DNA of 30,998 bases from a virus. The notes below the pieces were generated by a model. The model was not told the DNA's origin and did no database searches. It saw only the letters and a list, made by a program, of their open reading frames with translations. Positions 1 to 10,841 of this stretch are shown here, piece after piece (the first letter of the stretch is position 1; each line of letters starts with the position of its first letter). Location: positions 1 to 30,998 of the IMG/VR virus record IMGVR_UViG_3300020438_000158. One strand, given 5' to 3'. Position numbers and translations under genes: made by a program.

Positions 1-1515
1 GAAATGGGTCAGAGTCAACCGATTGATGATACCTTTGTAACTCCTGACTATCCTTATTGGGGTCTTGCCTATGTGCTTACACCAAAAGCAGCGAAGATTC
101 TTCTTGATGGAGATATTAAGCAGAATATGATACCAGTTGATGAATACTTGCCAAAGATGGTTCGTCAATTTCAAACACTTGCTTATAAGGTCAACGTAGT
201 CGAACAGAGAAACCGATCTGATTCTAAAAGTGATATTACAACTGGAAGTCGGTATGATGCGATGATTGACTTTCATGCTCATGCTTTGACGATGGGTACA
301 GAGGAGAGTCGATGTCTTAAACTTTACAGTAGTGCTGCATGTCATGGATTTGAGTTTGTTAACTTAGGTAAGGGTAAAAAGTGGATTGGTGGAGATATGC
401 TCAATGGGTGTCTTGGCGGTGGGCAGAAACTCAGAGCATTGAAGAAGTATATCAAGAATTTACCAGATCGGGACGTTGTTTTCTTTTGTGATGCCTATGA
501 TGTATTTCTTACGGACAGTTTGAATGAGATCATCTATCGGTATCTTGAAATTGGACATGATGTAATTTGTGGAGCAGAGAAGATCTGTTGGCCAGATGAT
601 AGATTGGCACAGAAGACAGAAGAACTTAATGCGAAGTACTTTCCTGATATGAAGACTGACTATCAGTATCTCAACTCAGGAACGATAATAGGTCGGGTCG
701 AAGTTCTTAAAAAGATATTATCTAAACTTCCAAAGAATGATGAGTCAGACCAGTTATGGATGCAGAAGATATTTCTAAGTGAGAAGTTTGACATCGTATT
801 GGATCAGGAATGTTATCTGTTTCAGACTCATGAACCCGAAGTCCATAAGGAGGGAGACCAATTAGTCAATCCGATTACGAAGTGTTATACATGCTTATAT
901 CATGGTAACGGAGGACAGGAACAGAAAAAACTCTTTCATAAAAAGTTTAAAGAGTTCTATGGTACATCAAGTCCGATCATATACACCCCGACCAAAAGAT
1001 ACGAAAAACTTTCAGATGAAATAATCCTTATAGATTATCTTACACCTTATATGTGTGACTCACTAATCGAGTTGAGCGAGCGTCACGGAGGTTATAAGAA
1101 CTTAGATGGCGATGATGTACCTGCACATGAAATGCGATTAAAGGAATTACAGTTATGGGATGTGACCGCACAGTACTGGGAGAATCATATAAAGCAAATT
1201 GTGTCAGAGTACTGGGAGTGTTGTAGTTTACATGGATTGAGAGATGCATTTATAATTAAGTACACCATGAACGGACAGAAGACGCTGAGATTGCACAGTG
1301 ATATAAGTCTGGTAAGTGGAAGTGTCAAGTTAAACGATGAGTATGAAGGTGGAGAGTTGTACTTTCCGAGACAGAACTTCTCTAATAAAGATGTACCTGT
1401 CGGAAAATGTATATTGTTTCCAAGTCAGGTCACACATCCCCATACATCCACAGAATTACTCTCAGGAACGAAGTGGAGTTTGACCATGTGGACTAACAAC
1501 ACAGTTAACACATAA
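1..1515 (+). CDS. Collagen-type glycosyltransferase/2OG-Fe(II) hydroxylase fusion (5' partial)
   Basis: The frame is open to the left edge, so the ATG at 4 is probably internal; residues are counted from it. Residues 18-50 (YWGLAYVLTPKAAKILL, then PVDEYLP) resemble the C-terminal end of GT25 collagen galactosyltransferases (COLGALT). Residues 118-315 match the PLOD/LH3 glucosyltransferase domain: GGGQK (138-142), the metal-binding DAYDVF (163-168), CWP (195-197), YLNSG (222-226), DQL (249-251), LDQE (266-269) and HGNG (300-303). Residues 340-496 are a double-stranded beta-helix dioxygenase with H431-x-D433, H480 and K490. The H-to-basic spacing of ten fits prolyl/lysyl hydroxylases, and Lys rather than Arg is prolyl-4-hydroxylase-like. 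Known family members hydroxylate collagen Lys or Pro and add Gal then Glc to hydroxylysine; mimivirus L230 is a viral two-domain relative. The substrate here is unknown. Domain calls are from motif reading. Confidence 0.85.
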   Translation, partial: EMGQSQPIDDTFVTPDYPYWGLAYVLTPKAAKILLDGDIKQNMIPVDEYLPKMVRQFQTLAYKVNVVEQRNRSDSKSDITTGSRYDAMIDFHAHALTMGTEESRCLKLYSSAACHGFEFVNLGKGKKWIGGDMLNGCLGGGQKLRALKKYIKNLPDRDVVFFCDAYDVFLTDSLNEIIYRYLEIGHDVICGAEKICWPDDRLAQKTEELNAKYFPDMKTDYQYLNSGTIIGRVEVLKKILSKLPKNDESDQLWMQKIFLSEKFDIVLDQECYLFQTHEPEVHKEGDQLVNPITKCYTCLYHGNGGQEQKKLFHKKFKEFYGTSSPIIYTPTKRYEKLSDEIILIDYLTPYMCDSLIELSERHGGYKNLDGDDVPAHEMRLKELQLWDVTAQYWENHIKQIVSEYWECCSLHGLRDAFIIKYTMNGQKTLRLHSDISLVSGSVKLNDEYEGGELYFPRQNFSNKDVPVGKCILFPSQVTHPHTSTELLSGTKWSLTMWTNNTVNT

Positions 1516-1532
1516 GAGTGAAAATGTAGGGT

Positions 1533-1548
1533 ATAATCTGTATGGAAT
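1533..1548 (+). repeat. 16-bp direct repeat, copy 1
   Basis: ATAATCTGTATGGAAT occurs here and again at 1668-1683, 135 bp downstream. This copy is preceded by GT so that it contains TATAAT. It may be a duplicated -10/start region, but no good -35 lies upstream. Confidence 0.6.
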
Positions 1549-1634
1549 ATGCGAAGGGGCGACTACTGAAGAACTGAGTGCTTTTTGTATAGTACTGATA
1601 CAGAAATAGGTTAAAAATACGTTTTAAATATGTT

Positions 1635-1642
1635 TATAAATA
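1635..1642 (+). promoter_or_regulatory. T4-type late promoter (TATAAATA)
   Basis: Exact match to the T4-like late -10 octamer recognised by the gp55 sigma factor. It lies in the gene-free spacer and points towards the structured-RNA region, not directly at a recognisable gene. In AT-rich sequence one such octamer can occur by chance. Confidence 0.4.
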
Positions 1643-1667
1643 TAAAACTGTCTTTTATTTGTCTTTG

Positions 1668-1683
1668 ATAATCTGTATGGAAT
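1668..1683 (+). repeat. 16-bp direct repeat, copy 2
   Basis: Identical to 1533-1548. Here the repeat is preceded by TG, so the TATAAT of copy 1 becomes GATAAT. Confidence 0.6.
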
Positions 1684-1818
1684 CTGTATGTATTGAGGGT
1701 AGAATGAGTATAGATTAATGGTCTCATAAATGGTCAGATTTCTTGTGTACTTAGCGAGCGTAGCATAAGGATCGCTCCTTGTCAACATATCAGGATTCGC
1801 AGATTTTTCAGGGAGGGG

Positions 1819-1847
1819 TTGACAGAATATCATAAAAGCATTATAAT
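1819..1847 (+). promoter_or_regulatory. Perfect consensus sigma70 promoter
   Basis: TTGACA (1819-1824), a 17-bp spacer, then TATAAT (1842-1847): both hexamers and the spacing are exactly consensus. The expected start is near 1854, two nucleotides before the base of a 13-bp stem. Such a promoter should be read by the unmodified host polymerase, so it is expected to act early in infection. No recognisable gene follows directly, which points to the structured RNA as its product. Confidence 0.8.
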
Positions 1848-2044
1848 TAAAGGAACTCGACTAGGTTTGGAGTCCTATTATGCACAAGATGTGGGAAACC
1901 TTCTGCATAAGAATCTAGTCGAGAGGTGAGGGACATCTTTACATAATGTAACAGAAGTCTCGACGAGAACATATATACTATTATGCAAACTCGTCGATAC
2001 ATCTCGTCGAGTATCATGCACATACACACATCTCGACTAAACAC

Positions 2045-2191
2045 ATGTACGACTACGAGTATCCATATGACATCGAGTACTCATCATATGATGATCTCGA
2101 CGAGACATATACGTACACATATGATCTAGATGACGATCATCCACGAGATACACATACGTGGCAAGAAATCGCATATATGCACTTTGCGTGA
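2045..2191 (+). CDS. Possible Tyr/Asp-rich small protein (48 aa)
   Basis: An ATG ORF of 48 codons lies inside the structured stretch. The product begins MYDYEYPYDIEYSSYDDLDE and is dominated by Tyr, Asp and Glu for 30 residues, then ends in a more ordinary tail (HTWQEIAYMHFA). There is no Shine-Dalgarno sequence before the ATG, and the frame stays open upstream to 1952 without another ATG. The composition could simply come from the repeated palindromic DNA (TATACGTAC, CTCGACGAG). Its transcript would come from the consensus promoter at 1819-1847. I recognise no family. Confidence 0.3.
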   Translation: MYDYEYPYDIEYSSYDDLDETYTYTYDLDDDHPRDTHTWQEIAYMHFA

Positions 2192-2212
2192 GCATGTTGC
2201 AGTGTGATACAG

Positions 2213-2240
2213 ACATCGTGAGGTAATACGATGTTGTTTT
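2213..2240 (+). terminator. Terminator-like hairpin ending the structured-RNA unit
   Basis: ACATCGT (2213-2219) pairs with ACGATGT (2228-2234) over an 8-nt loop and is followed by TGTTTT. The stem has few G-C pairs and the T-tract is interrupted, so termination may be partial. Confidence 0.45.
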
Positions 2241-2431
2241 ATACTATCTACAGATATTAACAGAAAGAAAAAGATATTACAAGAGGCAGTGTGGCAGCCT
2301 GATAATTGACACATATAATATTACAGAAGGTTACTCATATTAATTCATCGCAGGGGCGGTGGCGAAGATTTTATAGAGCGTACCTTCGCTCTTCATACTT
2401 CTATTATAATTGATCCATATCGGAAATCCAG
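2241..2431. other. Gene-free spacer with competing hairpins
   Basis: No gene is supported. Two mutually exclusive hairpins overlap: GCGAAG (2362-2367) with CTTCGC (2384-2389), and AGAGCG (2375-2380) with CGCTCT (2387-2392). A TATAAT at 2405-2410 lies 21 bp before the terminator stem but has no -35 partner. Confidence 0.5.
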
Positions 2432-2452
2432 CTGGCGTGTGCCAGTTTTTTT
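2432..2452 (+). terminator. Rho-independent terminator
   Basis: CTGGC (2432-2436), loop GTGT, GCCAG (2441-2445), then seven T. This is a textbook intrinsic terminator and separates the structured-RNA region from the small-gene cluster. Confidence 0.85.
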
Positions 2453-2454
2453 AG

Positions 2455-2526
2455 TGTCCACTAGTCGTTGTATTTGACAGCGGGATGGACTATAGTAAGA
2501 ATGTACAAAGGTTATTCCCAAATCTT
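2455..2526 (+). promoter_or_regulatory. Repeated promoter cassette, copy A
   Basis: Most diverged of six copies. Box TGTCCA (2455-2460), 30 bp, -10-like TATAGT (2491-2496), then ACAAAGGTT and TTCCCA (2515-2520), six nucleotides before the ATG at 2527. GTCCA/TGGAC can pair across the spacer. The segment from TATAGT to ATG closely follows copy D, which shows that the in-frame ATG at 2485 lies inside the promoter and is not the start. Confidence 0.7.
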
Positions 2527-2814
2527 ATGACTACAAAATTTGTAAAAGAACTCTACAACGAAGACTTAGTTTATTCTTCAGTCGTCTTCGGCATGGGTTT
2601 CTGGATAGACGACCAAGGTTTATTCATCTCAGCACCAGAATTCAAAGACGGGTCGCTCGATATCGACAATGCGATACCCGTGAGTGATTGGGAGTCGTTT
2701 GATGAATTGACCCCGCATCATCTCTCACACTTGATGAACGTTAACCAAATGTGTATACTCAAGAGAGATTCACAACAGATTGACTATTACGCAGGAGTTT
2801 TTCAAAATGCCTAA
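2527..2814 (+). CDS. Small acidic phage protein, unknown (95 aa)
   Basis: I place the start at ATG 2527, not at the in-frame ATG 2485. The longer version would translate the TATAGT promoter element and the TTCCCA leader that stand upstream of five other genes here. The product (MTTKFVKELYNEDLVYSSVV...) is acidic, with a central aromatic stretch (GFWIDDQGLFISAPEF). It has no signal peptide or membrane segment, and I recognise no family. Its stop overlaps the next start by eight nucleotides (ATGCCTAA), so the two are probably translationally coupled. It is the first gene of the cassette-driven region and likely expressed early. Confidence 0.75.
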   Translation: MTTKFVKELYNEDLVYSSVVFGMGFWIDDQGLFISAPEFKDGSLDIDNAIPVSDWESFDELTPHHLSHLMNVNQMCILKRDSQQIDYYAGVFQNA

Positions 2815-3007
2815 AGGAATTAACATCGAGTTAACACAAACTCAATACGACTACATGTATGAAGTGCTAATGGAAGCATACGCAAACGATGTAGCAGAGC
2901 AGAAAGATTGGGACGTGCAAACGTTTGACAATCTCATCGATAACATCTGTAATGGTAAATCTACCATTCTTTCAAATGATGTTAAAGGCATTATGCCAGT
3001 TAATTAA
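2807..3007 (+). CDS. Small phage protein, unknown (66 aa)
   Basis: Start chosen at ATG 2807, which has a Shine-Dalgarno-like AGGAG at 2793-2797. A longer version from a TTG at 2780 lacks any such signal. The product (MPKGINIELTQTQYDYMYEVLMEAYANDVAEQKDWD...) looks mostly helical and acidic, and no family is recognised. It overlaps the 3' end of the previous gene by eight nucleotides and is followed almost at once by cassette copy B, so the two genes form one unit. Confidence 0.75.
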   Translation: MPKGINIELTQTQYDYMYEVLMEAYANDVAEQKDWDVQTFDNLIDNICNGKSTILSNDVKGIMPVN

Positions 3008-3008
3008 G

Positions 3009-3082
3009 TGTCACATTCAACCCCCATTCGTAAGAGTGGCGGCTTATAATTAGTACATAAGCAAATTTCATTCCCAAGAATT
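3009..3082 (+). promoter_or_regulatory. Repeated promoter cassette, copy B
   Basis: Box TGTCAC (3009-3014) begins one base after the stop codon. A hairpin CCATTC/GAGTGG with loop GTAA fills the spacer, TATAAT is at 3045-3050 (30 bp from the box), then TTAGTACATAA, and TTCCCA (3071-3076) six nucleotides before ATG 3083. Confidence 0.85.
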
Positions 3083-3529
3083 ATGCCAAACTGGTGCAAA
3101 AACAGAGTTGACTTCTACTCAGAAAACAAAGAGGATCTAAAGAAAATCCTAGACATCTTTTCAAATAAAGAATCCGTATTTGGTCAAATCATACCAGAAC
3201 CAGATTGGAAAACAACACCAAACAAAGATGGCGAATTGCCAGTTGACAGAGAGTCACCATACCCACCACACTTTCCCGAATCAGGTATAACTGACGACAG
3301 ATGGTATAACTGGCGAAATGCAAACTGGGATACGAAGTGGGACGTTTCACAATCCGTAGAAATTGAGGAGGAAAGATACAAAGATGAGCTGGAATCTTTC
3401 ACAGCAGAATTTGATACCGCATGGTCACCACCCGAAGCAATCTGTCATGCCTTAAGGGAAATTTTCCCAGACGTGTCAATCTCATGGTTCTATGATGAAC
3501 CAGGAATGCAATTCGCAGGTTATCTATAG
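3083..3529 (+). CDS. YubB/Api92-like ferredoxin-fold protein (148 aa)
   Basis: The N-terminal MPNWCKN, the central WRNANWDTKWD (77-87), TAWSPP (112-117) and the C-terminal WFYDEPGMQFAGYL together match the signature of the DUF1281/YubB family, known from conjugative plasmids and from Api92 of the aphid-symbiont phage APSE. The fold in that family is ferredoxin-like and its molecular role is not established. The length is close to the compact members. It is a single gene between cassette copies B and C, which makes it look like a self-contained acquired unit. The family call is from motif memory, with good confidence in the family and none in the function. Confidence 0.85.
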   Translation: MPNWCKNRVDFYSENKEDLKKILDIFSNKESVFGQIIPEPDWKTTPNKDGELPVDRESPYPPHFPESGITDDRWYNWRNANWDTKWDVSQSVEIEEERYKDELESFTAEFDTAWSPPEAICHALREIFPDVSISWFYDEPGMQFAGYL

Positions 3530-3543
3530 GACAGTTTACAAAC

Positions 3544-3612
3544 TGGCACACTACAACCCCATTCGTTATGATTGGGGTTTATAATTAGAATATACACAAA
3601 GGATTCCCACCA
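3544..3612 (+). promoter_or_regulatory. Repeated promoter cassette, copy C
   Basis: Box TGGCAC (3544-3549), hairpin AACCCCA (3555-3561) with TGGGGTT (3573-3579), TATAAT at 3580-3585 exactly 30 bp after the box, then TTCCCA (3604-3609) three nucleotides before ATG 3613. The hairpin abuts the -10, so termination of upstream transcription and initiation would be tightly packed. Confidence 0.85.
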
Positions 3613-3741
3613 ATGTCAACATTACAGCACGAAGAAATTCTCTGGTCAATCTATTACGAAGTCATGGCAGAATTTCCATACATGACCGAAGATCAGCATA
3701 TTGAGATCGCAAACAAAAGATTTGAGGACTCATGCCAATGA
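3613..3741 (+). CDS. Tiny phage protein, unknown (42 aa)
   Basis: ATG 3613 stands three nucleotides after the TTCCCA of cassette copy C. The product (MSTLQHEEILWSIYYEVMAE, then FPYMTEDQHIEIANKRFEDSCQ) is predicted helical and acidic. It resembles in style the short helical proteins common in T4-like cyanophages, but no family is assigned. Its 3' end overlaps the next ORF by ten nucleotides. It is the first of three overlapping genes that would share one promoter. Confidence 0.7.
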   Translation: MSTLQHEEILWSIYYEVMAEFPYMTEDQHIEIANKRFEDSCQ

Positions 3742-3869
3742 ACATGGACTATGATGAAATCTTAAAATGTTACGAAGGAGTTGACGATGAACATGCATCA
3801 ACTTCATTCCAATTCGGAATAATGAACGACCTTTACTATCAACTTTTTTACAATTATGACAGGGATTGA
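3732..3869 (+). CDS. Tiny phage protein, unknown (45 aa)
   Basis: An ORF of 45 codons starts inside the end of the previous gene and overlaps the next by 14 nucleotides. The start could be ATG 3732, 3738 or 3744, all in frame (MPMNMDYDEI...). The product is acidic and rich in Tyr and Phe near the C-terminus (NDLYYQLFYNYDRD). No family is recognised. The end-to-end overlap on both sides is the main argument that it is real. Confidence 0.6.
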   Translation: MPMNMDYDEILKCYEGVDDEHASTSFQFGIMNDLYYQLFYNYDRD

Positions 3870-3984
3870 ACTTTTTATACTCATTGGCGGTTGCTATGCG
3901 ATCTATACAGTAGGCATGGCAATTTCAGCTCATTTGGATTATAGAGAATCCATGCTCAAATATAAGGATGAGTATGACAGTTAA
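3856..3984 (+). CDS. Tiny single-pass membrane protein (42 aa)
   Basis: ATG 3856 overlaps the end of the previous ORF. Residues 4-25 (IELFILIGGCYAIYTVGMAI) form one clear hydrophobic segment, followed by a charged tail (HLDYRESMLKYKDEYDS). This suggests a small inner-membrane protein with a cytoplasmic C-terminal tail. Function is unknown; small membrane peptides of phages often act on host envelope or lysis functions, but nothing here shows that. It closes the three-gene unit and is followed directly by cassette copy D. Confidence 0.65.
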   Translation: MTGIELFILIGGCYAIYTVGMAISAHLDYRESMLKYKDEYDS

Positions 3985-3989
3985 TAAAG

Positions 3990-4058
3990 TGGCACACAGT
4001 GGGTTCATTTTGATCTCATTGTTGTTTATAATAAGTACATAACAAAGGTTTCCCACTT
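3990..4058 (+). promoter_or_regulatory. Repeated promoter cassette, copy D
   Basis: Box TGGCAC (3990-3995) begins five nucleotides after the TAA stop. TATAAT is at 4027-4032 (31 bp from the box), followed by AAGTACATAACAAAGG, and TTCCCA (4050-4055) lies three nucleotides before ATG 4059. This copy has no strong hairpin in the spacer, so the box, the -10 and TTCCCA are conserved better than the stem. Confidence 0.85.
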
Positions 4059-4190
4059 ATGTACACCACAAAAGAATTTGACAAAGACGTAGCAGAGTTG
4101 AGAAAACTCATCAAAATGTGCGATGAACTGATTCAAAAACAGGACAGAAACACAGAGCATTTAATCAACCAATTCAACGGAGACAAGTAA
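4059..4190 (+). CDS. Tiny helical phage protein, unknown (43 aa)
   Basis: ATG 4059 stands directly behind cassette copy D. The product (MYTTKEFDKDVAELRKLIKM, then CDELIQKQDRNTEHLINQFNGDK) shows heptad-like spacing of Val, Leu and Ile and probably forms a short coiled coil. No family is recognised. One nucleotide separates its stop from the ATG of the next gene, so the two are likely co-translated. Confidence 0.7.
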   Translation: MYTTKEFDKDVAELRKLIKMCDELIQKQDRNTEHLINQFNGDK

Positions 4191-4191
4191 C

Positions 4192-4437
4192 ATGCAAAAT
4201 TTCAAACAGTTTTTAGATTACGTGATGTCATTCTATGGTGACGCAGATGCACTCTATCCAATCGACAATCTAACCAGAGAAGAAGTCGCATTAGCAACGT
4301 TGAATTATCTGGATCTGGTTGCATCCAGTAATGGAACAATCAACTGGGGCGATGGTGACTCTCTGGATCGTGAAAGAGTCAGAGACTTTATTATTAACAC
4401 AAGAGCGACCAAACCGCAGCTGCCAGTGTTCACTTAA
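4192..4437 (+). CDS. Small acidic phage protein, unknown (81 aa)
   Basis: ATG 4192 follows the previous stop by one nucleotide. The product (MQNFKQFLDYVMSFYGDADALYPIDNLTREEV...) is acidic, with a helical N-terminal half and a D/R-rich centre (WGDGDSLDRERVRDF). It contains no membrane segment or cysteine. I do not recognise a family. Cassette copy E starts five nucleotides after its stop, so it is the last gene of the copy D unit. Confidence 0.75.
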   Translation: MQNFKQFLDYVMSFYGDADALYPIDNLTREEVALATLNYLDLVASSNGTINWGDGDSLDRERVRDFIINTRATKPQLPVFT

Positions 4438-4442
4438 ACAAC

Positions 4443-4517
4443 TGGCACACACCCACTGCACACCGTTTACTTATCGGTTATAATAAGTACATAAGCAATT
4501 CACCCACTCTTCCCAAC
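4443..4517 (+). promoter_or_regulatory. Repeated promoter cassette, copy E
   Basis: Box TGGCAC (4443-4448), short stem ACCG/CGGT, TATAAT at 4479-4484 (30 bp from the box) followed by AAGTACATAAG, and TTCCCA (4510-4515) two nucleotides before ATG 4518. Confidence 0.85.
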
Positions 4518-4838
4518 ATGCGTAAAATTGAAATGATGATGAACTCAGCAATCAGATACAGAAAGAACTTCTCATCTGGTAACACTACGGTTCGTGCTTT
4601 CAGAGAATCAGTTGAAGTTTACCTACACGGAAACAACATTGCTTCACTTGATACAGCAACCCATGAACTCACTCTTAAAGATGGCGGGTGGCAGTCAAAC
4701 ACCACAAAAAGCAGACTTAATGCACTCTTAGATGAGTTCGTTCCAAGCATGCGTATTTTTCAAAATGACTGGACATGGTTTATCTCTGACAGTTTAGATG
4801 GTTCAAAACAACTTTTCACATCAGGTATGACAGTTTAA
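4518..4838 (+). CDS. Conserved phage protein of unknown function (106 aa)
   Basis: ATG 4518 lies directly behind cassette copy E. The product has the pattern RKIEMMMNSAI, NTTVRAFRESVEVYLHGNNIA, GGWQSNTTKSRLNALLDEF, MRIFQNDWTWFI. I recognise this as a recurrent small protein of marine T4-like phages; I believe it belongs with the family now called DUF8033, but that is from memory. The conserved GG-x(4)-TTKSRLNAL block suggests a nucleic-acid or ligand contact, which is inference only. It is a single-gene unit between copies E and F. Confidence 0.8.
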   Translation: MRKIEMMMNSAIRYRKNFSSGNTTVRAFRESVEVYLHGNNIASLDTATHELTLKDGGWQSNTTKSRLNALLDEFVPSMRIFQNDWTWFISDSLDGSKQLFTSGMTV

Positions 4839-4842
4839 TTAC

Positions 4843-4912
4843 TGTCACACCCGTCACCCCATTCGTGATGAGTGGGGTTTATAATAAGTACATACGAAAC
4901 AATTTCCCAAAC
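4843..4912 (+). promoter_or_regulatory. Repeated promoter cassette, copy F
   Basis: Box TGTCAC (4843-4848), a 9-bp hairpin with ACCCCATTC (4856-4864) against GAGTGGGGT (4870-4878) and a 5-nt loop, TATAAT at 4880-4885 (31 bp from the box), AAGTACATA, then TTCCCA (4904-4909) three nucleotides before ATG 4913. The in-frame GTG at 4865 lies in the hairpin and is rejected as a start. Confidence 0.85.
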
Positions 4913-5131
4913 ATGACAAAAACTCAAAGAATAATGAACAGAATCGTTCAGGTTGACAACTTCCAGAATATGGCATGCTGCTGTGCGGACTGGGCAGAGT
5001 TCGTGATTGAGTTGGCAGAGTGGGGAGTTGATGGGTGTGCGAAGGTAGATTTTGATGATCCAGAGTTAGACATTCCTACACTGAATAGGTTTATCAAAGC
5101 AGAAAACGGATATGTCAGGGAGGTTGCGTAA
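4913..5131 (+). CDS. Small Cys-containing phage protein, unknown (72 aa)
   Basis: Start set at ATG 4913 because the longer version from GTG 4865 would translate the cassette hairpin and the TATAAT. The product (MTKTQRIMNRIVQVDNFQNM...) contains a CCC run at residues 22-24 followed by ADWAEFVIELAEWGVDGC, then an acidic DFDDPELD. The cysteines could bind a metal, but they do not form a recognised zinc-finger pattern. No family is assigned. Its 3' end carries the strong Shine-Dalgarno for the next gene, so the two form one unit. Confidence 0.75.
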   Translation: MTKTQRIMNRIVQVDNFQNMACCCADWAEFVIELAEWGVDGCAKVDFDDPELDIPTLNRFIKAENGYVREVA

Positions 5132-6001
5132 ATGTTAAACAAACACATTGAACACCCAGAGGACACAATCCTTACAGGTGATCTATCCGTATTAAATGCG
5201 TTCACCGCAGATAATCATTATTCAGTTAAGATTGACGGATCACCCGCAATCGTTTGGGGAACTCACCCAGAGAATGGAAAGTTCTTTGTAGGCACGAAGT
5301 CCGTGTTTAATAAGATAACCCCAAAGGTTAACTACACAGTAAAGGACATTGAAAACAATCACCCAGACTTTGAGTTACAATCAATTCTTATTCGTTGCTT
5401 ACACAGTCTACCACAGACAGACCGAATTTTTCAAGGTGATTTCATCGGGTTCGGTGGTTACCGTGATTATAAACCGAATGCGATTAGTTACACATTGTCC
5501 GAAGTTCAAAACACTGCAGTCGTAGTTGCTCCGCATACAGAATACACGGGCGACAGTATGCGTACTCTCACTGCATCACCCTTGAAGGATAAGTTGGGAT
5601 CGGGTTTTATTCAACCGAATGCGTGGATCAGTGAGCATGGTGCAGTTATGAATATTGAAATGATGATTGGGTTCGCTCGTCAGATGGCAACACTGGTTGA
5701 CTTCGCCACCCCAAAGGAAGCGGAGTTATTAAAGAAGGATCTAAATGCATACATTCGTGACGGTGACGAAGTGGTAGCAGAGGAGTTCGCCAATTATCAG
5801 TTGGTGCGGTTGTGGTGCTTGGTTGAGAACATCAAAACCGAATATATGAAGTTAATGCGGGATGACTTTAACTGCGAATGCTTCTTAGGTAATGAATACG
5901 TAGACGGTGAGGGATACGTCATGCACAGTGAGCGTGGTACTTATAAGTTGGTGAACCGTTGGGTGTTCAGTCATTATAACTTTAATATCGTTCGTTCGTG
6001 A
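5132..6001 (+). CDS. Ligase-like covalent nucleotidyltransferase (289 aa)
   Basis: The start ATG has a clear Shine-Dalgarno GGGAGG at 5118-5123. The protein carries ordered motifs of the ATP/NAD-dependent ligase and capping-enzyme superfamily: motif I K33-I-D-G followed by SPAIVWG, a GTKS segment (54-57), QGDF (101-104) as a motif III candidate, EGYV (260-263) as motif IV, and TYKLVNR (270-276) as motif V with K272. In this superfamily the motif I Lys becomes covalently linked to AMP or GMP. The protein is short, with no OB-fold or DNA-binding extension visible, as in small phage RNA ligases. It resembles the uncharacterised cyanophage family I remember as DUF6267. Activity on RNA, DNA or another substrate is inference. 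Confidence 0.75.
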   Translation: MLNKHIEHPEDTILTGDLSVLNAFTADNHYSVKIDGSPAIVWGTHPENGKFFVGTKSVFNKITPKVNYTVKDIENNHPDFELQSILIRCLHSLPQTDRIFQGDFIGFGGYRDYKPNAISYTLSEVQNTAVVVAPHTEYTGDSMRTLTASPLKDKLGSGFIQPNAWISEHGAVMNIEMMIGFARQMATLVDFATPKEAELLKKDLNAYIRDGDEVVAEEFANYQLVRLWCLVENIKTEYMKLMRDDFNCECFLGNEYVDGEGYVMHSERGTYKLVNRWVFSHYNFNIVRS

Positions 6002-6010
6002 TACAGCAGT

Positions 6011-6036
6011 TATATGGGGGTTGATGCCCCCGTATA
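6011..6036 (+). terminator. Hairpin after the nucleotidyltransferase gene
   Basis: TATATGGGGG (6011-6020) pairs with CCCCCGTATA (6027-6036) over a 6-nt loop, a 10-bp stem with one G-U. No T-run follows (the next bases are TAAAAACC), so it may protect the 3' end of the mRNA or end transcription inefficiently. Confidence 0.55.
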
Positions 6037-6144
6037 TAAAAACCGATAGAGTCCCTAAGCTATAAACGACCCAATTCGACCTTTTGATATCAAGATCTAT
6101 AAATTTTTTTTTCGCTATATAAAATCAAGTCAAAGGTTCACTGA

Positions 6145-6318
6145 ATGAAAAAAAACTTCGAAAATATTTTTTCGACTATAGAGATCGATCCAGTTACAGA
6201 CAGGTATCATATTACAATTCCAGAGGAAATCATGAATGAGTTTGACTGGTACGAGGATCTTGTGTTAAAATGGAATGTAGACAGTGGAGACATTCTTATC
6301 AAGGAGGCAGATGACTGA
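6145..6318 (+). CDS. AbrB/MazE-like small protein (57 aa)
   Basis: The product starts MKKNFENIFSTIEIDPVTDR and continues YHITIPEEIMNEFDWYEDLV. The block ITIPEEIM...W..D.VLKWNVDSGDILI has the spacing of the SpoVT-AbrB swapped-hairpin DNA-binding fold, and relatives are frequent in T4-like cyanophages. If the fold is right, it could be a dimeric DNA-binding regulator or an antitoxin-like protein without a toxin partner; no toxin gene is adjacent. AAAGG eight nucleotides before the ATG can serve as ribosome binding site. The gene overlaps the next by eight nucleotides. Confidence 0.7.
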   Translation: MKKNFENIFSTIEIDPVTDRYHITIPEEIMNEFDWYEDLVLKWNVDSGDILIKEADD

Positions 6319-6496
6319 AGTTCAAACAAAATCATATCACATTTATTTGAATGAAAAATGTTTGTTTAAAAATTTGAATCAAGAAGAGTTTAATATTATA
6401 TGGAATCGCTTATATACATCTTATTGGAGTGATGAGGTATCATACTCAGAAATTACAGATAACCCGATAGAGTGTCACGAAGAATCCTCTTATTGA
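6311..6496 (+). CDS. Small conserved phage protein, unknown (61 aa)
   Basis: Start chosen at ATG 6311, which has AAGGAGG at 6301-6307 and overlaps the end of the AbrB-like gene in the usual ATGACTGA style. The in-frame upstream start at 6284 has no such signal. The product (MTEVQTKSYHIYLNEKCLFK, then NLNQEEFNIIWNRLYTSYW) resembles a short protein recurrent in marine T4-like phages, of unknown function. Its stop codon lies inside the -35 hexamer of the promoter for the downstream glycosyltransferase. Confidence 0.75.
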   Translation: MTEVQTKSYHIYLNEKCLFKNLNQEEFNIIWNRLYTSYWSDEVSYSEITDNPIECHEESSY

Positions 6497-6521
6497 CATT
6501 CTCTATATAATATTGTATGAT
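6493..6521 (+). promoter_or_regulatory. Sigma70-type promoter for the glycosyltransferase operon
   Basis: TTGACA (6493-6498), 17-bp spacer, TATGAT (6516-6521): one mismatch from consensus. The start is expected near 6528, 16 bp before ATG 6544. The -35 overlaps the TGA stop of the preceding gene. Confidence 0.65.
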
Positions 6522-6543
6522 ATGAATGTAATTACAAAACATT

Positions 6544-7299
6544 ATGGCTAAAGGATTTACAGTAAAAGCAAAAACTCCTGCAAAGAAGAAAGAGAAAGAA
6601 TGGGATTATGATAAAGCAAAAGAAATACTCAAAGGTAAGTCGGTAGTATTCTGTTTACCTGGTCGAGGAGTTTCATATACCTATCTCAAGTCATTTGTAC
6701 AATTGTGCTTTGATTTAGTACAGTGTGGAGCAAGTATACAGATATCACAAGATTATTCATCAATGGTTAACTTCGCCCGATGTAAATGTCTTGGAGCAAA
6801 TGTATTAAGAGGTCCTGATCAAATACCATGGGATGGTAAGTTAAACTATGATTACCAATTATGGATCGACTCTGACATCGTATTCAATTCAGAGAAGTTC
6901 CTTCAGTTAGTATTAATGGATAAAGATATCGCAGGTGGATGGTATTGTACCGAAGATGGTAAGACTACATCTGTTGCTCATTGGTTAGATGAGGATGACT
7001 TTCGTAGTAATGGTGGTGTGATGAATCACGAAACTCTCGAAAGTATATCCAAGCGTAAGAAACCATTTACAGTTGACTATACAGGTTTCGGTTGGCTCCT
7101 TATCAAGAAGGGTGTATTTGAACATGAAGATATAAAGTATCCTTGGTTCGCTCCGAAGATGCAAGTCTTTGAATCTGGTGAAGTACAGGACATGTGTGGA
7201 GAAGATGTATCATTCTGTCTTGATGCAAAAGAAGCAGGTTTTGAAATCTGGTGCGACCCACGTATAAGAGTTGGACATGAAAAGACAAGAGTTATATAG
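6544..7299 (+). CDS. GT-A-type glycosyltransferase (251 aa)
   Basis: After a Lys-rich tail (residues 1-20) the protein has a GT-A layout: a first beta strand (VVFCLPG, 34-40), NFAR (76-79), the metal-binding DSD within WIDSDIVF (107-114), GFGWLLIKKGVF (181-192), and GEDVSFCLDAKEAGFEIWCD (219-238) followed by H245. The GED motif supplies the likely catalytic acid region of GT2/Anp1-like enzymes. It should transfer a sugar from a nucleotide-sugar donor. The acceptor is unknown and could be DNA, virion protein or host glycan. The C-terminal end overlaps the next small gene. Similar enzymes are known upstream of gp25 in marine myoviruses, as I recall. Confidence 0.85.
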   Translation: MAKGFTVKAKTPAKKKEKEWDYDKAKEILKGKSVVFCLPGRGVSYTYLKSFVQLCFDLVQCGASIQISQDYSSMVNFARCKCLGANVLRGPDQIPWDGKLNYDYQLWIDSDIVFNSEKFLQLVLMDKDIAGGWYCTEDGKTTSVAHWLDEDDFRSNGGVMNHETLESISKRKKPFTVDYTGFGWLLIKKGVFEHEDIKYPWFAPKMQVFESGEVQDMCGEDVSFCLDAKEAGFEIWCDPRIRVGHEKTRVI

Positions 7300-7441
7300 A
7301 ATACGTGTCGGAACTCGTATTCTTCATGACCGAATCACAGAAGAAGAGTATCTGGACAAAATGCAAACGATTGCCGAAGACTTCTATGAAGGCGATCTAC
7401 CAAACGGAACTACAATTACTACAGAAATTATCAACGATTAA
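7277..7441 (+). CDS. Conserved small cyanophage-type protein (54 aa)
   Basis: The ORF starts inside the end of the glycosyltransferase gene in another frame. The product (MKRQELYRIRVGTRILHDRI, then TEEEYLDKMQTIAEDFYEGD) matches a short protein pattern, YRIRVG...TEEE(Y/F)..., that I know from marine T4-like phages. Function unknown. It fills the interval before the next gene with a 2-nt gap, and its charged alpha/beta composition is unlike an out-of-frame shadow. Confidence 0.8.
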   Translation: MKRQELYRIRVGTRILHDRITEEEYLDKMQTIAEDFYEGDLPNGTTITTEIIND

Positions 7442-7443
7442 TT

Positions 7444-7587
7444 ATGGCAATGAGATCTTTAGGGTTTACAAGCGGAGGAGTTGACTCGACTCCGAAAAAA
7501 ACTCGTCAAGGAAGAGGAAAACATACAAAATATTCCGCAACTTCGCGTAACTCGGCTCGTAAAAGGTACCGAGGTCAAGGAAAATGA
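7444..7587 (+). CDS. Conserved small basic protein (47 aa)
   Basis: The product (MAMRSLGFTSGGVDSTPKKT, then RQGRGKHTKYSATSRNSARK) is strongly basic and ends RYRGQGK. The pattern TPKKTRQGxGxxTKYxATSRNxARKxYRGQGK is a hallmark small protein upstream of gp25 in cyanophages. The charge suggests nucleic-acid binding, which is inference. The stop overlaps the ATG of the next gene by four nucleotides (ATGA). Confidence 0.85.
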   Translation: MAMRSLGFTSGGVDSTPKKTRQGRGKHTKYSATSRNSARKRYRGQGK

Positions 7588-7736
7588 ACTGTTGGCACTG
7601 TGGTACTGAATTAATCTGGGGTGCTGATCATGACATGGAGGATGTAAATGATGGAGAAGAGTCCGAATATGACTTTTACTCCAATTTTACATGTCCAAAA
7701 TGTCAATCTTATGTTGAAGTCTATCATCACAAATAA
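7584..7736 (+). CDS. Zinc-ribbon small protein (50 aa)
   Basis: Two CxxC knuckles, C3-x-x-C6 (CWHC) and C37-x-x-C40 (CPKC), frame an acidic loop (DMEDVNDGEESEYDFY). This is a compact zinc ribbon and probably binds one zinc ion. Partners are unknown; small phage zinc ribbons may contact RNA polymerase or nucleic acids. It is translationally coupled on both sides: ATGA with the previous gene and TAATG with the next. Confidence 0.85.
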   Translation: MNCWHCGTELIWGADHDMEDVNDGEESEYDFYSNFTCPKCQSYVEVYHHK

Positions 7737-8407
7737 TGTCTACTCTAATTGCGAATCTACCCTCCTATGATGTATGGGTAAGAAAAGAATATTTAACTGA
7801 CCATAAGAGTGGTCATGGTGAATTTGTTAAAGGTGTATGGGTATCTGCCAAAAGTATACCTGGTCGTGCCTTTTATTTTGAGACTTATTTACCAGAATAC
7901 GCTGCGATGTTCGATAAGTTGCCAATTTCTGCGTTTACAACCGATCCAGAGACACCAACACCCGATATGACTCTTCATAATCTGCAGTTTTGGAACTGTA
8001 TGGACTATGGAGTCGTTGCTGTACAGAAACAATTCATTGGAAGTATGCATTTTGAGGTCATGACAAGGGACTATGGCACTCAAACTGGCACTTATATCTG
8101 CACTTTGGACAATTATCATGAAAGTGTAGACTCAATTGACTACTCAACAAGTGAACAACCCGCTGAACATAAGTCTCATAACCTTCTTGAACTCGATAAT
8201 GGTCAATTTTGCCTCTATCCAAACAACAGAATGAGGATTTATGACAACAGCATCACTCCAGAAGTAGCAAAAGTACCTGATTTTAAAGTTTCGACTGTTT
8301 ATTACCAAGTTGAGAACGGTCATGACCGTGATGGACTCGGATCTGAAGAGAATTATTTTTGGAAAACAGCAAAAGAAAGGCAAGATAACCCAGAAATCGC
8401 CAATTAA
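7736..8407 (+). CDS. Conserved protein upstream of gp25, unknown (223 aa)
   Basis: The product (MSTLIANLPSYDVWVRKEYL...) has alternating beta-rich stretches with Trp and Tyr (FETYLPEYAAMF, LHNLQFWNCMDYGVVAVQ) and no membrane segment. A protein of this kind is regularly found just before gp25 in marine T4-like phages, as I recall. It ends in QVENGHDRDGLGSEENYFW. Its function is not known, and its position suggests a link to baseplate or late functions. The TAA stop sits in the loop of the terminator at 8394-8419, so it is the last gene of its operon. Confidence 0.8.
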   Translation: MSTLIANLPSYDVWVRKEYLTDHKSGHGEFVKGVWVSAKSIPGRAFYFETYLPEYAAMFDKLPISAFTTDPETPTPDMTLHNLQFWNCMDYGVVAVQKQFIGSMHFEVMTRDYGTQTGTYICTLDNYHESVDSIDYSTSEQPAEHKSHNLLELDNGQFCLYPNNRMRIYDNSITPEVAKVPDFKVSTVYYQVENGHDRDGLGSEENYFWKTAKERQDNPEIAN

Positions 8408-8419
8408 GGCGATTTTTTT
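8394..8419 (+). terminator. Rho-independent terminator before the late block
   Basis: AAATCGCC (8394-8401), loop AATTAA, GGCGATTT (8408-8415), with the T-run 8413-8419 partly in the stem. The loop includes the stop codon of the upstream gene. It separates the middle-type operon from the late structural genes. Confidence 0.85.
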
Positions 8420-8430
8420 ATGATTTTAAG

Positions 8431-8438
8431 TATAAATA
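8431..8438 (+). promoter_or_regulatory. T4-type late promoter 1 for gp25
   Basis: TATAAATA directly after the terminator, 53 bp before ATG 8492. Exact late octamer. Confidence 0.75.
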
Positions 8439-8456
8439 AAGAATTATCACTGCAGG

Positions 8457-8464
8457 TATAAATA
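8457..8464 (+). promoter_or_regulatory. T4-type late promoter 2 for gp25
   Basis: A second exact TATAAATA, 26 bp from the first and 27 bp before ATG 8492. The tandem arrangement suggests strong late expression of the baseplate operon. Confidence 0.75.
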
Positions 8465-8491
8465 AACCTAGCAAACTGTTTACCCATTTGA

Positions 8492-8890
8492 ATGAAAACT
8501 AGGATATCTAGGTCATTTAAGGATATTAGCTTATCATTTAAACCACATCCTGTTACAGGAGACCTCACAATTATCACTAATGCGAATGCAATTAAGAGAT
8601 CTGTAAGGAATTTAGTGGAAACAATTCCCAGAGAACGATTTTTTAATCCAAATTTAGGTAGTGAGGTAAGAAACACCTTATTTGAGTTTTGTGATTTTGG
8701 TACTGCATCTGTAATTCAACGACAAATCATTATAACTATCGAAAATTTCGAACCTCGAATCGATAATTTGGACGTTGAAGTGAATCCACGACCAGATCAG
8801 AACGAATTTGAGGTAACTGTCTTCTTTGATATCATTGGACAGCAGTTTCCGACACAAGAATTTCAATTCATATTAGAAGCCACACGATAA
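8492..8890 (+). CDS. 25: Baseplate wedge subunit gp25 (132 aa)
   Basis: The length equals T4 gp25 (132 aa). The sequence has the gp25 lysozyme-like fold pattern: SLSFKPHPVTGDL (13-25), AIKRSVRNLVET (33-44), ERFFNPNLGSEVRNTLFE (48-65) and the conserved EPR triplet (87-89), then VEVNPRPDQNEFEVTVFFDI. In contractile tails gp25 links the wedge to the sheath and starts sheath assembly. Two late promoters stand directly upstream and the gene is followed after one nucleotide by gp6. Confidence 0.95.
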   Translation: MKTRISRSFKDISLSFKPHPVTGDLTIITNANAIKRSVRNLVETIPRERFFNPNLGSEVRNTLFEFCDFGTASVIQRQIIITIENFEPRIDNLDVEVNPRPDQNEFEVTVFFDIIGQQFPTQEFQFILEATR

Positions 8891-8891
8891 T

Positions 8892-10841
8892 ATGCCATTT
8901 ACTAAATTTTCAAACTTAGATTTTGATCAAATCAAGACATCAATTAAAGATTACCTTCGTACAAACTCAGATTTTGACGCTTTTGACTTTGAGGGGTCTA
9001 ACTTTTCAGTTTTAATTGATACTTTAGCATATAATACGTATATTACTGCGTTTAACTCAAATATGGTTGTCAATGAGTCTTTTCTTGACTCAGCAACAGT
9101 CAGAGAAAACGTAGTTTCATTAGCAAGAAACATAGGATACGTTCCTAGATCTCGAACTGCAGCACAAGCGACCATATCTTTTAATATTACAAATACAGAG
9201 GATGTAAATATTGATTCAGCACCTTCTACAGTGACTTTGAAGGCGGGTTTAATTTGTATTGCTTCAAATAGTAGCATTACATACACTTTTTCAATTCCAG
9301 AAGATATTACAACTACAACAACTTTAGGTCAGGTAGGTACTAACTCGCAGGGAAATACAATTGCAGGTGGATATTCTGCATTTTTTGATTCAATCAAAGT
9401 TTTACAGGGAACATTTGTAAAAAAATCATTTACTGTTGATGGATCACTCGATCAAAGATTTATTTTAGACAATCCTTTCATAGATGCCTCTACAATTGTG
9501 GTATATGTGAAAGGTTCAAGTAGTAAAGGTAAAGGAACACTATACACAAAAGTTGATAATATTTTAAATATAGATTCTACATCATCTACATTTCTAATTC
9601 AGGAAGTTCAGGATGAAAAATACGAACTTTTATTTGGAGATGGTATTTTTGGTCGAAAACTTGAAAATGAATCTGTAATAGATGTTAGTTACATTGTTAC
9701 TGACGGAAAAGATGGAAATGGACCTTCATCATTTACATTTGCAGGAACTTTAGAAACTGCTCCTAATTCCACTGTCAATTTATCATCCTCACCAATAATA
9801 AATGTCGCTTCTAGTGCCTCTAATGGAGGTGATATTGAATCAACTGACTCAATTAAATACTTTGCCCCTCGACTCTATTCATCACAGTACAGGGCGGTTA
9901 CAGCAAGGGATTACGAAGCAATAATACAGCAAATTTATCCAAACACTGAAAGTGTTTCTGTTGTTGGAGGAGAGGAAATTGATCCACCACAATTTGGAAC
10001 TGTGTTTATCACAATAAAACCACAAAATGGTGATTTTGTATCTGATTTTGACAAAACTCAAATACTATCAAATTTAAAAAATTATACCCTAACAGGAATT
10101 ACTCAAAAGATAGTTGATTTGAAAGTTCTTCATATTGAAATAGAATCATTCATATACTATGACTCAGCAAAAGTTGTAAATGTTGAAGAATTAAAAACCA
10201 ATGTAATAAATGGTCTGACAACTTATTCAAATTCCACAGAAATTAATAAATTTGGTGGTAGATTTAAGTATAGTAAAGTTCTAAGTGTTATTGATAACAT
10301 TGAAAATTCTATTACATCTAATATCACAAGAGTTCGAATTCGAAGAAATTTAAATGCTTTAATTAATCAATTTGTACAATATGAACTTTGTTTTGGTAAT
10401 CAGTTTAATGTTAAGTCTGAAGGATTAAATATTAAAAGCACAGGATTTAAAATTGCTGGAGAAACTTCAACTGTATTCTTAACAGATACTCCAAATGCCG
10501 ATAAACTCACTGGTGTAATTTCAATTGTGAAGAAAGATGTTGTTAATAGTGAAAAAATTATTATTGTTGAAAATGCAGGAAATGTAGATTACATTAAAGG
10601 TGAGATAAATTTAACTACTGTTAATATTACATCAACTGAAAAACCAAACAATGTAATCGAAGTTCAAGCTTTCCCAGAATCTAATGATATTATAGGTCTT
10701 CAGGATTTATACTTGAAATTTAACATCGAAGATAGTCTCATAAATATGGTAAAGGATACAATTTCGTCAGGAGATCAAATATCAGGTGTTGGATACAAAG
10801 TTACATCAAGTTATACCAATGGTAAATTAGTAAGAGGATAA
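8892..10841 (+). CDS. 6: Baseplate wedge subunit gp6 (649 aa)
   Basis: The start is one nucleotide after the gp25 stop (TAATATG). The protein opens MPFTKFSNLDFDQIKTSIKD with NSDFDAFDFEGSNFSVLIDTLAYNTYITAFNSNM, typical of cyanophage gp6. Its length is close to T4 gp6 (660 aa). The middle contains a baseplate-J-like region (ELLFGDGIFGRKLENESVIDVSYIVTDGKDGNG and RAVTARDYEAIIQQIYP). Gp6 forms the clamp of the wedge core and interacts with gp25, gp53 and gp7. The gene belongs to the gp25-gp6-giant protein operon. Confidence 0.93.
   Translation: MPFTKFSNLDFDQIKTSIKDYLRTNSDFDAFDFEGSNFSVLIDTLAYNTYITAFNSNMVVNESFLDSATVRENVVSLARNIGYVPRSRTAAQATISFNITNTEDVNIDSAPSTVTLKAGLICIASNSSITYTFSIPEDITTTTTLGQVGTNSQGNTIAGGYSAFFDSIKVLQGTFVKKSFTVDGSLDQRFILDNPFIDASTIVVYVKGSSSKGKGTLYTKVDNILNIDSTSSTFLIQEVQDEKYELLFGDGIFGRKLENESVIDVSYIVTDGKDGNGPSSFTFAGTLETAPNSTVNLSSSPIINVASSASNGGDIESTDSIKYFAPRLYSSQYRAVTARDYEAIIQQIYPNTESVSVVGGEEIDPPQFGTVFITIKPQNGDFVSDFDKTQILSNLKNYTLTGITQKIVDLKVLHIEIESFIYYDSAKVVNVEELKTNVINGLTTYSNSTEINKFGGRFKYSKVLSVIDNIENSITSNITRVRIRRNLNALINQFVQYELCFGNQFNVKSEGLNIKSTGFKIAGETSTVFLTDTPNADKLTGVISIVKKDVVNSEKIIIVENAGNVDYIKGEINLTTVNITSTEKPNNVIEVQAFPESNDIIGLQDLYLKFNIEDSLINMVKDTISSGDQISGVGYKVTSSYTNGKLVRG

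Follow-up and report, generated by a model that had tools for sequence, protein, structure and literature searches.

We studied a short promoter-like element that is repeated in the DNA of a marine virus, a 30,998-base IMG/VR record (IMGVR_UViG_3300020438_000158; this whole stretch is called the window), where six copies, A–F, stand between small genes. We found that a copy is not a simple box and -10 hexamer. Its parts, in order, are a 24-bp palindrome that contains or adjoins the stop codon of the upstream gene, a spacer of 29–31 bp that often holds a GC-rich hairpin and whose -35 is weak or lacking, TATAAT, a short A-rich leader, and the ATG of the next gene. We consider it probable (about 0.7) that each copy is a promoter cassette common to most of the T4-like cyanophages examined, being an activator-dependent promoter of the sigma70 type with a terminator and shuffling role.

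The initial annotation had correctly placed every box, spacing, and -10 hexamer of the six copies (table 1). The boxes start at 2455 (TGTCCA, copy A), 3009, 3544, 3990, 4443, and 4843 (copies B–F), the distances from box end to -10 are 30, 30, 30, 31, 30, and 31 nt, respectively, and the -10 hexamer is TATAGT in copy A and TATAAT in the other five. The pattern TGKCAC-N30/31-TATAAT was found 5 times on the plus strand of positions 1501–8500, whereas 0.002 occurrences were expected from dinucleotide-Markov sequence, and a chance origin of the copies is excluded. The box had been proposed as the recognition site, but the hexamer accounts for no more than the right half of a longer palindrome of 24 bp (TGTGMCASTTnnnnAASTGKCACA), which was obtained with an iterated weight matrix. 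The left half (TGMCAGTT), which ends before the box, covers part of the upstream stop codon or borders on it; the palindrome is centred some 41 bp upstream of the -10, near -53. The unit described by the matrix consists of the palindrome, 29–31 bp, and then CTATAATA and an A-rich leader.

The spacing within this unit was found to be fixed. In part of the window and five related loci, 28 of the 31 TGKCAC boxes lying at most 100 nt upstream of a plus-strand TATAAT were at 36 or 37, and the second half-site started exactly 15 bp upstream of the box in 20 of 29 cases. With the matrix, 142 promoter-like elements were retained from eleven cyanophages, and the reversed-sequence control gave no hits with the palindrome matrix. 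In these elements, upstream stop codons were mostly inside the palindrome or a few bases away, and the first ATG usually followed 21–30 nt past the -10. Considering that the matrix was trained on the scanned genomes and that some palindromes were counted twice in the set, once per strand, two tests of spacing were chosen that avoid circularity. Among 144 IMG/VR loci picked solely by the right half and the -10, the left half was at offset 15 in 52, and no other offset exceeded 5. Conversely, around IMG/VR palindromes picked solely as such, TATAAT was at one of the two distances in 33 orientations, 25 of them at 36 and 8 at 37, and no other position had more than 4.

Enrichment of the box-spacing pair in related phages, which had been set beforehand as the check on the cassette, was strong in cyanophages and nil in T4 and the pelagiphage HTVC008M. 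Near-complete genome scans gave 22 elements in P-SSM2, 23 in S-SSM7, 19 in S-PM2, 12 in Syn9, 26 in the freshwater phage S-CRM01 (HQ615693), 8 in S-TIM5, and 2 in S-SM2; the palindrome-spacer-TATAAT unit was thus present 8–26 times in most of the cyanophages scanned in full, and it was absent from T4, HTVC008M, and reversed sequence. Whole phage records contained 2–13 forward matches of the strict pattern in most cyanophages, as against at most one per record for a reversed control pattern. Offsets 35–38 were enriched in P-SSM2, S-SSM7, metaG-MbCM1, S-PM2, P-HM2, S-SKS1, and P-SSM7; T4 and HTVC008M showed no such enrichment. The elements were mostly grouped in the small-gene block before gp25, and in Syn9, 9 of the 12 lay at 40–60 kb, within or adjoining this block. 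The window carries homologs of gp25, gp6, gp7, and gp8 in T4-like cyanophage order, its gp8 protein is 48–54% identical to those of P-SSM2, S-SRM01, S-T4, and other cyanophages, and it is, judged by its sequence, a T4-like marine cyanophage. Its small genes at 2.5–6 kb match PHROGs of unknown function, and their DNA also matches Prochlorococcus and Synechococcus myoviruses, in which the same block sits immediately 5' of gp25.

Outside phages the unit was rare. Strict palindromes gave at least 120 matches in the viral collection, whereas 257 Gb of contigs from bacteria and archaea yielded just 44 stretches, nearly all of which lacked TATAAT at 36/37. About one-third of these stretches were cyanobacterial, mainly filamentous or non-marine, and many others were acidobacterial; none was titled Prochlorococcus, and the only close relative was Cyanobium. 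The core pattern occurred 15 times in 16 phage records (3.0 Mb), compared with 2 of 121 genomes from the GTDB family of a sampled Cyanobium genome, a family that presumably includes the marine hosts. Because of this near-absence, a host regulon using the operator is unlikely, and this candidate was rejected.

Some occurrences outside the scanned cyanophages were recorded separately. Contigs assigned to a Flavobacteriales metagenome-assembled genome (MAG), TMED113 (L246, which is NHFO01000061.1, and C52 and C54 of genome G002), carry cyanophage-type cassettes and small genes, with operator, terminator, and TATAAT at about 7430–7490 of L246; they are therefore probably mis-binned phage contigs. 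The palindrome also occurs in filamentous cyanobacteria (L203, L206, and L229), in some cases near an open reading frame (ORF) of about 500 amino acids, and an acidobacterial MAG, Pyrinomonadaceae SSF56, has it on six contigs (L205, L212, L216, L222, L234, and L237). These copies are mostly intergenic and without a -10, and they are possibly transposon ends or sites of another regulator. One viral contig (IMGVR_UViG_3300008113_001711; L269 and L303) has several strict palindromes in a tandem row at a spacing of about 58 bp.

The symmetry of the element resides in the DNA. Position 5 of the palindrome arms was pairable in 64 of the 142 elements, versus 68 expected under independence, and position 8 in 46, versus 55.7; since the halves do not covary, the palindrome is a DNA operator and not an RNA stem. 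Moreover, a second TATAAT at 36/37 on the opposite side of the palindrome was found in 13 of the 142, while about 72 other positions gave 8. The lack of covariation, the constant spacing from the -10, and the opposite-side TATAAT together point to a symmetric DNA-binding protein that recognizes the palindrome. Within positions 1501–8500, the strict pattern had a single reverse-strand match, at 2403–2444, which shares palindrome A and may be a divergent promoter rather than a by-product of the terminator hairpin. In operator A, the left half doubles as the 3' arm of the terminator hairpin that lies upstream. Besides, a minus-strand TATAAT at 3938–3943, within ORF 3856–3984, lies 36 from palindrome D and is possibly an antisense or divergent promoter.

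The core promoter was more variable. The initial annotation had seen no -35 hexamer at the normal place, and this did not hold for the family: TTG was found at a 16- or 17-nt spacer from the -10 in 36 of 142 elements, and other spacers gave 0–8. In the window, the -35 is weak in copies A (TTGTAT), D (TTCATT), and E (TGCACA), and in copies B, C, and F its position (CCCATT) lies within the hairpin. Many of the S-CRM01 elements have a different core promoter, with TTGACT and with TATGCT followed by AGCTAAGT, and some IMG/VR copies also carry TTGACT with TATGCT or TATCAT. Taken with the TTG counts, these TTGACT copies point to sigma70-type promoters whose -35 is weak, and weakest where a hairpin occupies its place. 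The spacers of the 142 elements folded better than shuffled sequences (mean z -1.64). Stabilities of -6 kcal or lower were reached by 63 of them, and 19 of these 63 also had a T run; CCCCCTTTCAGGGGGTTTTTT in P-SSM2 is an example of a full terminator-like spacer. In the window, the spacers of B, C, D, and F fold, all without a long T run, and copy A has a terminator upstream that overlaps the left half of its operator. Thus copy D, which had been described as free of a hairpin, does have one, and the unstructured spacer is that of copy E. The spacers of C and F are identical at 22 of 28 bases, and the likeness of the B, C, and F hairpins stems from sequence kinship and is no evidence of covariation.

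We further found that cassettes have been exchanged between genes as the phages evolved. Orthologs of gene F (ORF 4913–5131) were gathered by protein and were therefore unselected for the element, which nevertheless stood upstream in 53 of the 56 that had upstream sequence. TATAAT was kept in 37 of 41 distinct upstream regions, and the spacers differed widely. Some matched window copy F at 25 of 28 bases. The spacer at ortholog locus L410, however, matched window copy E at 26 of 28, and those of L400, L401, and L431 matched copy D at 25 of 28; these D- or E-type spacers agreed with copy F at only 8–10 of 28. Unrelated elements gave a mean of 8.1 of 28, with a 99.9th percentile of 19. Gene order around gene F was rearranged in the loci with D- or E-type spacers, and recombination would be the process behind the exchange. 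Among earlier-fetched loci, the element was directly upstream of gene E homologs in 35 of 40 cases and of gene F homologs in 11 of 11. It was also directly upstream of 39 of 51 homologs of gene 5132, which gene F separates from the promoter in the window, and of 0 of 12 homologs of gene 6145. Most of these loci had been fetched for holding the element somewhere, so the counts for the four genes are supportive only.

We propose that a symmetric, probably dimeric protein would bind the palindrome near -53, beside the -35 region, and would recruit the host sigma70 RNA polymerase, compensating for the weak -35 and sometimes activating in both directions. An activator site at a fixed helical distance, as the initial annotation had suggested, is the best-supported reading, except that the site is the 24-bp palindrome near -53 rather than a hexamer near -45 and that a degenerate -35 is present in many copies. 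In some copies, the spacer hairpin would be a complete intrinsic terminator. By stopping the transcript of the preceding small operon, the hairpin would let each cassette close one unit and open the next, and since the cassettes provide short homology before many small genes, recombination could exchange them. The genes are probably early, as judged by genome position and by earlier literature. More tentatively, and at somewhat less than even odds, a putative regulator, probably delivered or encoded by the phage, would control the whole block of small takeover genes through 8–26 promoters in most T4-like cyanophages, with the cassettes doubling as terminators and recombination joints. As the operator has a fixed geometry, its regulator can be searched for directly by DNA pull-down. 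Cassette exchange would explain in concrete terms how small host-takeover genes can turn over so fast in these very abundant ocean viruses.

Three observations weigh against activator dependence and the terminator role. Good -35 hexamers in S-CRM01 and some IMG/VR elements imply that activation may be dispensable in places. A stable hairpin is combined with a T run in only 19 of 142 spacers, and termination may therefore fail at many of the hairpins. Finally, a comparison of gene co-occurrence between element-bearing and element-free phages yielded 34 candidate ORFs, none of them an evident DNA-binding protein; photosynthesis genes, structural genes, and antisense frames made up most of the list.

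Among the alternatives, the one that survives best, though still unlikely, is that a host transcription factor hijacked by the phage binds the operator. Cyanophage promoters that hijack host PhoB are documented (in S-PM2d, PMC10976474), and an early timing of the genes would require the factor to be in the cell already at infection; the near-absence of the palindrome from the host family and the lack of Prochlorococcus titles in the wider scan argue the other way, leaving as a possibility a hijacked factor with few or different host sites. We regard as rather improbable a promoter-terminator of the promoter-early-stem-loop (PeSL) type that needs no dedicated regulator, with host sigma70 polymerase sufficing and the palindrome being UP-like or structural. 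The good -10, the TTG at -35 in one-quarter of copies, the terminator-like spacers, the shuffling, and the failure of co-occurrence to turn up a regulator would all fit it, but a symmetric, GC-containing 24-bp palindrome at a fixed 36/37 spacing is unlike an A/T-rich UP element, varies less than either the -35 or the spacer, and occurs in neither T4 nor HTVC008M. A shade less probable is a repressor operator that switches the genes off later in infection, which would also count against activation: a dyad operator beside the -35 can repress, but here the centre falls beyond the zone where occlusion usually operates, and a need for activation is suggested by the poor -35 of many copies. That the palindrome is an RNA stem-loop at the upstream mRNA end (a 3'-end stabilizer, processing, or antitermination site) is very improbable, despite its place by the stop codon and a consensus able to fold, since its variable arm positions show no covariation and would often fail to pair in RNA, and since a set distance from the -10, whether on one side or on both, is a constraint of DNA geometry.

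Doron and coworkers reportedly described, in 2016, a novel regulatory element for early genes of Syn9 (and P-TIM40) that is conserved and abundant in T4-like cyanophages. We take it to be probably the same promoter; the two are alike in phage group (T4-like cyanophages including Syn9), conservation, abundance, and a reported or probable role at early genes. No description of the palindromic motif was found in the literature searched, a scope outside which fall the full texts of Doron 2016, Arbiol 2010, and Comeau 2014. Cyanomyoviruses have been reported to lack alt, modA/B, motA, and asiA, and their early and middle control, including how early genes are switched on without these factors, was called unclear (PMC2984593). 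Cyanophage promoters have been predicted by BPROM together with patterns for T4 late, Pho, and NtcA sites (PMC3037559), a procedure that would miss a palindromic operator.

The likeness to PeSL cassettes drawn in the initial annotation proved apt, as both units couple a promoter with a hairpin or terminator and the cyanophage cassettes, too, have moved from gene to gene. PeSL cassettes, as far as PMC4503421 relates them from Arbiol 2010 and Comeau 2014, combine a sigma70-type promoter with a stem-loop or terminator between small accessory genes and are associated with shuffling. In the cyanophages we found a sigma70-type promoter in a variable region (TATAAT fixed, TTG in one-quarter of elements, clustering in the small-gene block), exchanged cassettes, and terminator-like spacers in part of the elements. 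Compared with that account of PeSLs, the cyanophage cassette adds a 24-bp palindromic operator at a fixed distance and a weak -35, and its hairpin is placed between operator and -10. It would best be described as a PeSL-like cassette, to which the operator and the comparative evidence of exchange are additions. For S-PM2, a host-like early promoter and potential stem-loops, one at 11369–11391, were reported, and PeSLs were judged too sparse to matter (PMC4503421); this stem-loop sits inside an element at 11364–11405, and the exchange of cassettes calls that judgment into question. The promoter-carrying intergenic repeats of halovirus HF2, in what PMC8707807 says of them, are likewise short viral intergenic repeats with promoters, but they belong to an archaeal virus and are unrelated in sequence.

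Three known promoter classes were tried and rejected. For a sigma54 promoter (TGGCAC-N5-TTGC), TTGC is not in place in copies C, D, and E, which have TATAAT instead; for an NtcA promoter (GTA-N8-TAC), the conserved upstream block is TGTGMCASTT-N4-AASTGKCACA. T4 middle promoters are similar in having a strong TATAAT, a weak -35, and an upstream activator site, the MotA box, which is close to -30 and different in sequence. A MotA-type promoter, with its box 11–13 bp upstream of TATAAT, does not fit a palindromic block at 36/37 bp; cyanophages lack motA and asiA (PMC2984593), and T4 has no copy of the element.

Table 1. Parts of the six cassettes and associated genes in the window (PWM, position weight matrix score; MFE, minimum free energy)
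Feature	Position	Strand	Remarks
Divergent -10 TATAAT	2403..2408	-	at 36 from palindrome A
Intrinsic terminator before copy A, AGCTGGCGTGTGCCAGTT + T run	2430..2453	+	MFE -10.0, z -3.95
Copy A operator TGTGCCAGTTTTTTTAGTGTCCAC	2438..2461	+	PWM 37.4 on +, 35.1 on -; box TGTCCA at 2455
Copy A -10 TATAGT	2491..2496	+	-35-like TTGTAT, 17-nt spacer
Copy B operator TATGCCAGTTAATTAAGTGTCACA	2992..3015	+	PWM 40.7; overlaps upstream ORF end, stop TAA 3005-3007
Copy B spacer hairpin	3021..3042	+	MFE -10.4, z -2.16
Copy B -10 TATAAT	3045..3050	+	precedes ORF 3083-3529
Copy C operator TAGGACAGTTTACAAACTGGCACA	3527..3550	+	PWM 45.9; stop TAG of ORF 3083-3529 inside operator
Copy C spacer hairpin	3555..3579	+	MFE -12.2, z -2.36; abuts -10
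Copy C -10 TATAAT	3580..3585	+	precedes ORF 3613-3741
Copy D operator TATGACAGTTAATAAAGTGGCACA	3973..3996	+	PWM 48.7; overlaps stop TAA 3982-3984 of ORF 3856-3984
Copy D hairpin, box included, G-U rich	3991..4026	+	MFE -12.0, z -4.22
Copy D -10 TATAAT	4027..4032	+	-35-like TTCATT, 17-nt spacer; precedes ORF 4059-4190
Copy E operator GTGTTCACTTAAACAACTGGCACA	4426..4449	+	PWM 38.6; left half degenerate; overlaps stop TAA 4435-4437
Copy E -10 TATAAT	4479..4484	+	spacer unstructured, z +0.4; precedes ORF 4518-4838
Gene E	4518..4838	+	phrog_554, downstream of copy E
Copy F operator TATGACAGTTTAATTACTGTCACA	4826..4849	+	PWM 43.4; overlaps stop TAA 4836-4838
Copy F spacer hairpin CCCCATTC...GAGTGGGG	4856..4878	+	MFE -14.5, z -2.11
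Copy F -10 TATAAT	4880..4885	+	precedes ORF 4913-5131
Gene F	4913..5131	+	phrog_9580, downstream of copy F

Upstream of the cassettes, a perfect consensus promoter (TTGACA-N17-TATAAT) is present at 1819–1847, at the head of the plus-strand interval 1819–2240. The stretch of about 390 nt that follows it has no PHROG-matched ORF, folds strongly (z -3.18), and closes with a terminator-like hairpin at 2212–2235; related DNA (72%) occurs in Marine virus AG-345-L05, and the alignment retains the -35 and a -10. It had no match in an Rfam search of positions 1–9000, which gave zero matches overall, and no tRNAs were found. This stretch is a candidate non-coding RNA of the phage. Elsewhere in the window, a 2OG-Fe(II) oxygenase-like protein is encoded at 4–1515 (phrog_61) and a conserved glycosyltransferase-like protein at 6544–7299 (phrog_1574/phrog_34859), and the protein at 7736–8407 matches a PHROG labelled ferredoxin (phrog_3704).

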